NCBI RefSeq assembly: GCF_016744625.1
Contig: NZ_JADGDZ010000011.1
Location: forward strand, 1-64,000
Reading direction: 5' to 3'
Source: Winogradskyella sp.
Lineage (GTDB): Bacteria; Bacteroidota; Bacteroidia; Flavobacteriales; Flavobacteriaceae
DNA: 64,000 bases
The position numbers were made by a program, and so were the translations under genes. How positions within the stretch are numbered: the stretch's first letter is position 1; each line of letters begins with the position of its first letter. Below are positions 4,854 through 20,653 of this stretch, piece after piece. The notes beneath the pieces are model-generated. The model did no database searches and had not been told where the DNA came from. It worked only from the letters and a program-made list of their open reading frames with translations.

Positions 4854-4951
4854 TAACGTCTTTTATTTCGGTTATAAAAGTACACAACGACCAGCACGAT
4901 ACCAAGGATGAGGAACAATCTATTACCACCTAAAAAATTAAGAAAATCCAT
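4853..4951 (-). CDS. Micro membrane protein, 32 residues
   Basis: A very short frame found by reading the gap upstream of queD. It encodes 32 residues: a short N-terminus (MDFLNFLGGNR), one hydrophobic helix (LFLILGIVLVVVYFY) and a positive tail (NRNKRR). The layout is that of a single-span inner membrane micropeptide with its C-terminus in the cytoplasm. The stop codon TAA shares its last base with the queD ATG, and the start lies 1 base after the stop of the next upstream frame, so spacing supports translation. Function unknown. Chance cannot be excluded at this length, but the membrane-protein composition and stop/start coupling on both sides make it credible. Confidence 0.6.
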   Translation of the reverse strand: MDFLNFLGGNRLFLILGIVLVVVYFYNRNKRR

Positions 4952-17614: not shown

Positions 17615-18223
17615 ATGGCTTTTGAATTACCAAAATTAAAATACGCTTATGATGCTTTAGAACCAAATATAGATACTCGCACAATGGAGATTCATCATTC
17701 TAAACACCATAATGGATATACAACAAAACTTAATGCAGCAATAGAAGGCACAGATTTAGAAGGTAAGTCTATTGAAGATATCCTTACAAATTTAGATATG
17801 AGTAATGGTGGAGTAAGAAATAATGGAGGAGGGTTTTACAATCACTCTTTATTTTGGGAGGTAATGAATCCTGAAGACAGAGGTTACCTATCTGGAGACT
17901 TAAAAGATGCTATTGAAGTAGAATTCGGTTCTAAAGATGCATTTATTGAAGCATTTAGTAAAGCAGCAGCAACACAATTTGGTTCTGGTTGGGCATGGTT
18001 ATGTGTGCATAAAGGAGGAAAAGTTGAAGTTTGCTCTACACCAAACCAAGACAATCCATTAATGCCAGGAGTTACTTGTGGAGGAACACCTATATTAGGA
18101 TTAGATGTTTGGGAACATGCTTACTATTTAAATTACCAAAACAGAAGACCAGATTATATTAGCGCATTTTTTAATGTAATTAACTGGAATGAAGTTGAAC
18201 GTCGTTATGCTGAAGCAAAATAG
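17615..18223 (+). CDS. sodA: Superoxide dismutase, Fe/Mn family
   Basis: 202 residues, normal family length, no signal peptide, so cytoplasmic. Metal ligands are H27 (MEIHHSKHH), H77 (FYNHSLFW), D164 and H168 ([10 protein letters not shown]). NHSLFW and Gln145 in [10 protein letters not shown] are Mn-type positions, so a manganese or cambialistic enzyme is more likely than a strict iron enzyme. A TAAATTTG box at 17572-17579 lies 35 bases before the ATG, and a clear terminator follows the stop. Monocistronic. Confidence 0.93.
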
Positions 18224-18246: not shown

Positions 18247-18280
18247 GAAAAATCCAAGTCTTTAATGACTTGGATTTTTT
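18247..18280 (+). terminator. Intrinsic terminator of the superoxide dismutase gene
   Basis: Stem AAATCCAAGTC / GACTTGGATTT around a TTTAAT loop, followed by TTTTTT. It begins about 25 bases after the stop. Confidence 0.85.
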
Positions 18281-18334: not shown

Positions 18335-18446
18335 AATGAAAAAGCATGAACAGATGTTCATGCTTTTTGCCCCAAATCTACCATAAACTTAACCTACTTA
18401 TGTTATGGTGAGTCAAATATAGGTGTACATTATTTTAACCATTCAA
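18335..18446 (-). ncRNA. Predicted small RNA unit 1 (promoter, 45-base conserved block, terminator)
   Basis: Read on the minus strand: TTG (18444-18446), 22 bases, -7 box TATATTTG (18414-18421), then a conserved 45-base block (18411-18367) and a 14-bp terminator hairpin (18355-18368 / 18339-18352) whose T-run merges with TTTTTCATTTTC. The predicted transcript is about 75 bases. Within the block, CCATAA can pair with TTATGG. The block is 44/45 identical to the one at 18601-18645, while the terminator stem sequences differ, which suggests the block is selected as an RNA. It has no useful open frame. It could instead belong to the purF 3' untranslated region. The family is unknown to me. Confidence 0.55.
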
Positions 18447-18569
18447 TTTTTTGGACAAACGACCTATAAATTAGTCTAAGCGTGGAAAGTGTTATGTTTC
18501 TGACGTAATAAGTTTAAATGTAAGGTTCGAATTGAAGTTATGACTTAAAGTGTTACTTTAATAAAGGGT

Positions 18570-18676
18570 ATAAAAAAAGGTGAACATTGTTCACCTTTTT
18601 TTGCCCCAAATCTACCATGAACTTAACCTACTTATGTTATGGTGATACCAATGTAGATGTAATTTGTTAAAGCAAA
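18570..18676 (-). ncRNA. Predicted small RNA unit 2 (tandem copy)
   Basis: Same layout as unit 1 on the minus strand: TTTG (18673-18676), 17 bases, -7-like box TACATTGG (18648-18655), conserved block (18645-18601) and a terminator hairpin AGGTGAACA / TGTTCACCT (arms at 18578-18586 and 18588-18596) with A/T runs outside it. The -7 box lies exactly 3 bases from the block in both units. The single difference in the block (A/G) weakens one pair of the CCATAA/TTATGG stem. The unit starts about 80 bases past the purF stop, so it may also act as the purF terminator. Confidence 0.5.
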
Positions 18677-18754
18677 TGCATATATTGGATGAAATGCAAT
18701 ATTCTTCGATAAAATACATATTTTATCGGATTAAATGCTATTTTGTAATGTTGT

Positions 18755-20653
18755 TTAGTAGGCGCGCTTCTTATTTCCTTCGTAAAAATTAATGAAAGCT
18801 CTGTTGACAACTCTATTACCTCCAGCTGTTGGGTAGTTACCAGTAAAGTACCAATCACCTAAATTTTTAGGACATGCTTTGTGTAAATTCTCAACCGGTT
18901 GAAATATTATTTTCACTTCTGCATTAACATCTTCATCACTTAATAATTCTGAAATCTTATCCGAAATCTGTTCATCTGTAAAGTTCTCATAGATGTCTTT
19001 TACATAGTTAACAACCTTTTTATCCTTAAGGTTAATCTGAGTTAAACATTTATTATAGACATCTTCAACTATATGATATAAATTATTATCTTTTAATAAA
19101 GCTAATGCAGCTCTAAAAGCCACCAAACTTTCTAAGTTCGCCATATCAATACCATAACAATCGGGATAACGAATCTGTGGAGCAGAAGACACCACAACTA
19201 TTTTCTTTGGATCTAATCTGTCCATCATTTTAATGATACTCTTCTTAAGCGTTGTGCCTCTTACAATACTATCATCAATAATAACTAAGTTGTCCGTTGG
19301 TTTAATAACACCATAAGTGACATCGTAAACATGAGCTACTAAATCATCTCTACTACTGTCTTCTGTGATAAAGGTCCTTAGCTTTACATCTTTAATAGCT
19401 ATTTTTTCAATACGTGGACGTTCAGATAAAATTTCTGTCACTTTTGCTGCAGAAAGTTTGCCATTACCATCTAAAATTGATTTTGTTTTCTTTTTATTGA
19501 GGTGTTCTTCAACAGTATCAATCATACCAAAAAATGAAGTTTCAGCTGTATTGGGTATAAATGAAAATACGGTATTTTCTGTGTCATTATCAATAGCTTC
19601 AAGTACTCTAGGCATTAATAAACGACCTAATTCTTTTCGTTCTTCATAGATTTCGGCATCACTACCACGAGAAAAGTAAATACGCTCAAAAGAACACGCC
19701 TTTCTTTCTAAAGGTTGAAGTATTTTCTTGATTTTTGTTTCACCAGATTTTTTTGTGATAATAGCATGACCAGGATCTAGTTCCTTAACAGCATCAAAAG
19801 GCACGTTAAAAACTGTTTGTATTACTGGACGCTCGGAAGCAACAACAACAACTTCATCATCTTTATAGTAATATGTAGGCCTAATACCTGCAGGATCTCT
19901 TAAAACAAAAGAATCTCCATGTCCTAATAAGCCAGCCATTGCATAACCACCATCCCAGTTTTTGGCAGCTCTCTTTAAAATCTTAGCAACGTTTAAACGG
20001 TCAGCGATAAGAGGAGAGCATTCACTCTTATTATAACCTTCTTTTTTAAGATCTTTATATATTTTAGCAACAGCATCATCTAAAAAATGACCAATCTTTT
20101 CCATTACAGTAATGGTATCTGCTTTTTCTTTTGGATGTTGGCCAATTTCAATAAGGTTATCGAAGAGTTCATTAACATTAGTCATGTTAAAGTTACCTGC
20201 AACAATAAGATTTCTATGTTGCCAGTTATTCTGTCTTAAAAAAGGGTGAACACTTTCTACACTATTTTTTCCAAATGTACCATAACGTACATGACCTAAA
20301 AACAACTCACCTATATAAGGAATGTTTTTTTTCTGTAGGTCAACGTCTTCTTGATATTGAGGATTTTTAGTTAGCTCGTCATTAATACGTTCATTAATTT
20401 GAGCAAAAATATCCTGAATAGGTTGTTGAGCAATAGAACGCACACGGCTTATATAACGTTCTCCAGGTTGGGTATTTAATTTAATACTTGCAAAACCAGC
20501 TCCGTCTTGTCCACGGTTGTGCTGTTTTTCCATCATTAAATACATTTTGTTGACACCATAAAATGCACTGCCGTATTTTTCTTTGTAGTACTCTAATGGT
20601 TTTAAAAGTCTAATAAGTGCAATACCGCACTCATGTTTTAAAGCATCACTCAT
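18755..20653 (-). CDS. purF: Amidophosphoribosyltransferase, long Bacteroidota form
   Basis: 632 residues, well above the usual 470-510 of PurF. The N-terminal glutamine amidotransferase domain has a Cys nucleophile at residue 9 (KHECGIALI, implying removal of a short leader), NRGQDGAG and GHVRYGTFG. The phosphoribosyltransferase domain has the PRPP loop VIIDDSIVRGTT near 458. The enzyme makes phosphoribosylamine from PRPP and glutamine, the first step of purine synthesis. Extra length lies in insertions and a C-terminal tail (about 560-632). It is preceded on the same strand by a PfkB kinase whose own terminator lies between them. It could be a divergent paralogue of a standard PurF encoded elsewhere. 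Confidence 0.85.
   Translation of the reverse strand: MSDALKHECGIALIRLLKPLEYYKEKYGSAFYGVNKMYLMMEKQHNRGQDGAGFASIKLNTQPGERYISRVRSIAQQPIQDIFAQINERINDELTKNPQYQEDVDLQKKNIPYIGELFLGHVRYGTFGKNSVESVHPFLRQNNWQHRNLIVAGNFNMTNVNELFDNLIEIGQHPKEKADTITVMEKIGHFLDDAVAKIYKDLKKEGYNKSECSPLIADRLNVAKILKRAAKNWDGGYAMAGLLGHGDSFVLRDPAGIRPTYYYKDDEVVVVASERPVIQTVFNVPFDAVKELDPGHAIITKKSGETKIKKILQPLERKACSFERIYFSRGSDAEIYEERKELGRLLMPRVLEAIDNDTENTVFSFIPNTAETSFFGMIDTVEEHLNKKKTKSILDGNGKLSAAKVTEILSERPRIEKIAIKDVKLRTFITEDSSRDDLVAHVYDVTYGVIKPTDNLVIIDDSIVRGTTLKKSIIKMMDRLDPKKIVVVSSAPQIRYPDCYGIDMANLESLVAFRAALALLKDNNLYHIVEDVYNKCLTQINLKDKKVVNYVKDIYENFTDEQISDKISELLSDEDVNAEVKIIFQPVENLHKACPKNLGDWYFTGNYPTAGGNRVVNRAFINFYEGNKKRAY

Follow-up and report, generated by a model that had tools for sequence, protein, structure and literature searches.

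The FopS small RNAs (sRNAs) of Bacteroides thetaiotaomicron (Rfam RF04319, PMC11697453) comprise 14 members of 65-75 nt with sigABfr-type promoters, a single seed in the 5' end (R1'), and RbpB binding; they pair at the start codons of surface-protein mRNAs, including those of susC operons, and translational repression has been shown (PMC11697453). GibS, from the same organism, is encoded by a single gene with a promoter of a different class and applies two seed regions, R1 and R2, to translation initiation regions (PMC11697453). In Flavobacteriaceae, regulatory RNA has been little studied. Rfp18 of Flavobacterium psychrophilum is reported to be conserved in other species, to have secreted-protein targets, to pair through a third stem-loop, and to exert a positive effect on two mRNAs (PMC9723704). 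The Flavo-1 motif (Rfam RF01705) is another widespread RNA of the family. The ribosomes of these bacteria are described as working without the use of Shine-Dalgarno pairing (PMC9976891), and the locus analyzed here bears on how translation can be controlled in that setting.

We analyzed a 64,000-nt stretch of a Winogradskyella sp. genome (GCF_016744625.1, contig NZ_JADGDZ010000011.1, positions 1 to 64,000; hereafter, the window) that carries two tandem units on the minus strand. With a probability of about 0.8 by our estimate, these represent a multicopy, trans-acting, base-pairing sRNA of Flavobacteriaceae that uses its loop and tail to bind mRNA leaders, masking the start codon and repressing translation. 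The RNA family is new, although its kind is known, and its layout with two guides is unusual. We found no published description of this RNA in a search that was limited to openly licensed papers and was not exhaustive.

Two tandem units between purF and a sodA-type gene

The two units and their neighbors are as follows (the sodA-type gene was named from its own sequence, with no family search).

17615..18223, plus strand: sodA-type superoxide dismutase gene, conserved convergent neighbor (ORF and synteny)
18339..18412, minus strand: sRNA unit 2, sodA-proximal, predicted RNA of ~74 nt (covariance-model match and fold)
18339..18368, minus strand: intrinsic terminator of unit 2, perfect 14-bp inverted repeat
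18369..18409, minus strand: conserved 41-nt core of unit 2 (exact match)
18369..18380, minus strand: guide 2 of unit 2, the 3' tail, identical in sequence to that of unit 1
18388..18402, minus strand: guide 1 of unit 2, the apical loop, identical in sequence to that of unit 1
18414..18421, minus strand: promoter -7 box of unit 2, TATATTTG (TAnnTTTG conservation)
18572..18646, minus strand: sRNA unit 1, purF-proximal, predicted RNA of ~75 nt (covariance-model match and fold)
18572..18602, minus strand: intrinsic terminator of unit 1, perfect 15-bp inverted repeat
18603..18643, minus strand: conserved 41-nt core of unit 1 (exact match)
18603..18614, minus strand: guide 2 of unit 1, the 3' tail TAGATTTGGGGC, with its complement CCAAATCTA in 5' leaders
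18622..18636, minus strand: guide 1 of unit 1, the apical loop CATAAGTAGGTTAAG, which contains CAT (start-codon complement), with its complement TTAACCTA(CTTATG) at target-leader start codons
18648..18655, minus strand: promoter -7 box of unit 1, TACATTGG, with TTG at 18675-18673 and a 17-nt spacer (TAnnTTTG conservation)
18755..20653, minus strand: purF, conserved upstream neighbor (ORF and synteny)

The initial annotation described a 45-base block shared by the two units at 44 of 45 positions. Two minus-strand copies are indeed present, but the shared stretch is slightly longer, 48 nt at 98% identity (18364-18411 compared with unit 1). Its 41-nt core, ACCATAACATAAGTAGGTTAAGTTYATGGTAGATTTGGGGC, never turned up when the window was shuffled 100 times, with 0 expected by chance. 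The other parts of that description hold: a TAnnTTTG-like box precedes each block at equal spacing (TACATTGG and TATATTTG), an intrinsic terminator follows each block, with stems (GGTGAACA/TGTTCACC and GCATGAACA/TGTTCATGC) that are perfectly paired and differ in sequence, and the DNA between the units is unrelated. An independent promoter combined with an intrinsic terminator is a general criterion for an sRNA gene, and both units meet it on sequence evidence.

Each block consists of a hairpin and two unpaired guides, namely, the apical loop CAUAAGUAGGUUAAG, which holds an AUG complement, and the 3' tail UAGAUUUGGGG. The complements of the guides are TTAACCTACTTATG (loop; in the form CTTAACCTACTTATG, it includes ATG) and CCAAATCTA (tail). 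The stem, originally given as CCATAA/TTATGG, is present and is corrected here to CCAUAAC/GUUYAUGG with a bulged Y. In the predicted folds, the tail is unpaired and the apical loop is mostly unpaired save for a weak 3-bp helix. The full units fold with z-scores of -4.2 and -3.9, and the blocks alone with z-scores of about -1, so that the terminators account for most of the signal. The stretch AAGUAGGUUAAG can serve as the probe target for the predicted ~75-nt RNAs.

Two inverted repeats flank the units. The imperfect one between purF and unit 1 (18692-18743) is perhaps the purF terminator; the strong one directly after sodA (18248-18279, AAAAATCCAAGTCTTT/AATGACTTGGATTTTT) is likely a terminator. 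The PfkB-type and PurF proteins encoded in the window are 95.8% and 89.9% identical, respectively, to their counterparts on a W. pacifica contig (L072).

Conservation of the element in Flavobacteriaceae

The element was matched in 36 of 36 genomes of the same genus, nearly all of which keep the tandem pair. In contigs representing one genome per species, an exact 26-mer was found in at least 117, mostly from Flavobacteriaceae as judged by titles; the genera among the matches listed include Flavobacterium, Winogradskyella, Aquimarina, Salegentibacter, Lacinutrix, and others. Among these listed matches, purF and/or sodA adjoin the element in 108 of 117 contigs, and in most Flavobacteriaceae examined, it lies between the two genes. 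In the contig stretches L039, L044, L071, L077, L086, L103, L124, L142, and L145, the sRNA was found without a purF or sodA match. Copy number varies from 1 to 6, in tandem, and almost every genome has a single such locus. Part of the family commonly carries a variant that has an additional A (GGTAAGATTTGGGG). Contig L078 has two standard copies and, next to them (minus strand, near 4892), a diverged additional one (ATCATGACATAAGTAGGTTAAGTTTATGTTTAGATTTGGGAAC), which carries a terminator of its own.

The family search by covariance model that the initial annotation proposed was run with a model, R1, built from 38 copies. In an order-wide sample, R1 scored 69-95 bits in 50 of 62 Flavobacteriaceae genomes and no more than 28.7 bits in other families; in a phylum sample, there was no match outside Flavobacteriaceae at an E-value of 1e-4. 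The two copies in the window scored 93.8 bits (unit 1, 18573-18646) and 85.3 bits (unit 2, 18339-18412), values that are not independent because both copies are in the training set. In the suggested Rfam comparison, no family of Rfam 15 reached its gathering score for the units. The matches at E-values up to 10 (e.g., RmaA and MicC) were rejected as low scoring and resting on the A/T-rich terminator. The FopS model (RF04319) scored 22.1 bits on the window against a gathering score of 56 (E-value 0.51; 18569-18627, mostly terminator), and the Flavo-1 model (RF01705) yielded no match even at an E-value of 10. For GibS, sequence relationship was checked by the Rfam scan only.

In 172 upstream regions that are mutually less than 70% identical, the TAnnTTTG box (at least 5 of 6 positions) is present in 168, mostly 3-6 nt before ACCAT. 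An A-tract and a terminator follow the copies, and the terminator stems change from copy to copy. Conservation of box spacing, block, and terminator within diverged surrounding DNA is as expected of independent sRNA genes; this recurrence throughout the family supports the original proposal of paired non-coding RNA genes, which included neither the family-wide distribution nor the second guide and the targets. The hairpin stem holds in 97% of cells. With an invariant right arm, it shows changes on one side only and therefore has no covariation support. Part of the invariance within the 26-nt pattern follows from the exact-match scan itself; the flanking bases, the mismatched tandem copies, and the same-genus comparison provide less biased support.

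The tandem arrangement by itself might also point to a repeat of mobile or coding origin, or to a DNA element with a regulatory role; such a repeat, if found elsewhere in the genome, would have refuted the sRNA proposal. However, the element nearly always occupies one locus per genome, between the same genes, and the 3.72-Mb genome contains only two strong copies, which rules out a dispersed mobile repeat. No conserved reading frame was found in the block among the copies compared, since the frame enters terminators of differing sequence. This explanation can be virtually dismissed.

Complementary sites in mRNA leaders

The pairing potential of the guides was assessed on leaders chosen without regard to the site. 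Starting from one scan match, orthologs of a CAP-domain lipoprotein (Pfam PF00188) were gathered by protein homology alone (46 leaders). CAAATC occurs within 45 nt of the start in 32 of the 46 leaders vs 3 of 473 background genes (Fisher p 1e-36), and both parts of the site in 21 of 46 vs 0 of 473 (Fisher p 5e-25). The median summed duplex energy is -24.5 kcal/mol for the CAP leaders and -12.9 kcal/mol for the background (Mann-Whitney p 3e-26); the reversed sRNA does not produce the effect to the same degree (median -14.9 on the CAP leaders). A typical leader (L386) reads TTAATTTTACAGAACCAAATCTAAATTTACCTACTTATGAAG. In genomes with the variant sRNA (tail AAGATTTGGGG), the ATG is instead preceded by GCCCCAAATTTGATG in 8 of 20 CAP leaders, three of which have AACCTACT in codons 2-4. 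Given that the leaders come from related genera, these tests measure association and not independent events.

Seven candidates were identified in the genome itself, all as predicted targets.

C96: CAP lipoprotein, leader CCCAAACCTAAATAACCTACTTATG
C121:30971: lipoprotein-like gene
C78: secreted protein
C153: esterase
C79: LamG protein
C20: gldK-gldL intergenic region
C121:4661: mRNA of a 41-aa ORF that has three tail sites and is retained in some members of the genus

All seven form strong duplexes with both guides, with summed energies better than those of all 500 shuffles. Homologs of the lipoprotein-like gene (L239, L354, and L359) and of the C78 protein (L318) have a similar site in other genera, and several other orthologs of the two have none. 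At the 41-aa ORF (MKTQPNLPEPTLNENVLF...), three tail complements lie around the start (L004/L157; C121 near 4644, reverse), an arrangement kept in about ten same-genus genomes; the mRNA is possibly a multi-site target or a natural sponge. A good gldL leader site is present in this genome and in one other genus, and is weaker or lost elsewhere; gldL was therefore rejected as a family-wide target, in a survey whose motif failed to read 24 of 30 loci.

Two-part sites were also sought in 199 genomes of the family. The pattern CCAAATC-N{0,8}-TTAACCTA was compared with a single altered, composition-matched pattern in which each half was reversed. The total number of sites is not above the control (53 vs 49), and only their position is enriched: 19 of the 52 sites read lie within 12 nt of an ATG vs 1 of 30 in the control (Fisher p 4e-4). 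A first random null (13% near an ATG) was discarded, as it counts internal Met codons and start-centered loci. Five further sites (L229, L240, L285, L288, and L290) are located 5-7 nt before a related short ORF (MKNVKRIVLLIALIFFASKVLS...) in five genera, of about 40 codons in four of them.

A second pattern, CCCAAATC-N{11,40}-TTAACCTA, with the sRNA genes themselves left out, yielded sites at an ATG in 22 of 27 cases read, 17 of which precede one large surface protein in different genera (weak matches to the SprB repeat and Y_Y_Y were detected in one member). In all 17 leaders, CCCAAATC lies within a hairpin of at least 6 bp, vs 39% of shuffled flanks; it occupies the loop, and the stem sequence varies between genera. 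These hairpins were assessed by per-sequence folds against shuffles; RNAalifold gave no consensus for the leaders, with MAFFT leaving the arms unaligned. Two-part sites from related genera are only partly independent, and some orthologs of the L175 family lack the site. Several matches were rejected because they are coding motifs or antisense, among them L241 and L282, whose sites are inside a histidine-kinase-type coding sequence. In three genera (L236, L297, and L303), a gene for a LytTR-type response regulator has CCAAATCTTAACCTA 111 nt ahead of it, away from the start-codon position where sites usually lie.

Complementarity to targets that exceeds chance and is conserved between species is another general criterion for an sRNA, and it is met here. 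The tail singled out in the initial annotation as available for target pairing does have its complement in mRNA leaders at start codons, but the apical loop matters equally. The sense of these motifs also bears on the possibility that the units act as decoys in the manner of CsrB or 6S, multicopy and conserved so as to titrate an RNA-binding protein. The extreme conservation of the block, the tandem copies, and the long A-tract would all fit such a function; however, a decoy would carry the same-sense motif, whereas the guides are complements of the leader motifs, not copies, and these motifs sit at start codons. We consider a decoy role highly improbable, although protein binding besides pairing is not excluded.

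A two-guide model and its relation to known sRNAs

Conservation, architecture, and complementarity at start codons were computed directly, and the mechanism suggested by them is a model. Each ~75-nt RNA would keep its short hairpin, CCAUAAC/GUUYAUGG, closed, exposing the loop CAUAAGUAGGUUAAG and the tail UAGAUUUGGGG. The target mRNAs are predicted to have very short leaders, with CCAAATCTA probably near the 5' end and TTAACCTACTT(ATG) at the start codon. Both guides could pair simultaneously, with the sRNA stem bridged; with both paired, the duplex would thus cover the start codon and block ribosome binding. Putative targets are mostly secreted or surface proteins, namely, CAP-domain lipoproteins, large adhesin-like proteins, a subtilase, an esterase, a LamG protein, and possibly GldL, and the mRNA of the 41-aa ORF, with its several sites, may act as a sponge. 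On the broader proposition, we are evenly divided: a family-wide post-transcriptional regulon in which two guides across an intact hairpin, one with the anti-start codon, coordinate many secreted and surface proteins, and leaders have co-evolved, being short and largely made up of the site or displaying it on hairpins with changing stems, with the 41-aa ORF mRNA as a possible natural sponge.

Transcription, pairing in cells, the 5' ends of the targets, and repression are inferred only, and none of the computations establishes the sign of regulation. In the CAP leaders, CCAAATC often has a TAnnTTTG-like box a few bases ahead of it, so the tail site may start at the 5' end of the mRNA, an inference made without mapped 5' ends. 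The same pairing could activate or stabilize the mRNAs, for example, by shielding the 5' end from decay. This alternative draws on the tail site lying where the 5' end of the short leaders is presumed to be and on F. psychrophilum, where deletion of rfp18 lowered two metalloprotease mRNAs, so that positive sRNA effects are known in Flavobacteriaceae (PMC9723704). Nevertheless, a loop guide placed over the start codon or immediately ahead of it should block initiation, as in the case of FopS (PMC11697453), and we regard activation as unlikely and repression as the preferred reading.

It is possible, albeit unlikely, that the sRNA is Rfp18 itself or another reported Rfp RNA of F. psychrophilum, in which case the RNA would be known, and the family and regulon would not; this is compatible with the pairing model. 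Rfp18 is reported to be structured, conserved across Flavobacterium species, and predicted to target secreted metalloproteases and adhesins, a class similar to that found here. However, its pairing is attributed to a third stem-loop, whereas each unit described here is one hairpin and a terminator; the positive effect on two mRNAs is a further difference. Identity with Rfp18 would require that it contain the stretch GGTTAAGTTYATGGTAGATTTGGGGC.

By analogy, FopS is the closest described system in function. Both are short multicopy sRNAs of Bacteroidota, and the tandem copies with their TAnnTTTG box match the FopS trait of sigABfr-type promoters. Both are directed to start codons of surface-protein mRNAs, on computational evidence only in the present case. 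They differ in layout, the FopS trait of a 5' seed not being met, because here the apical loop and 3' tail serve as guides (layout was compared, the R1' sequence was not); in organization, with a single locus of 1-6 tandem copies and two guides rather than 14 members with one seed; and in targets, CAP lipoproteins and adhesin-like proteins replacing susC operons. Two guides are shared with GibS, which differs in gene number and promoter class, and occurrence throughout Flavobacteriaceae with Flavo-1. The precise two-part target code should make regulon members readable from sequence in many genera, and the parallel with FopS suggests that start-codon control of surface proteins by multicopy sRNAs either arose repeatedly or is old in the phylum.
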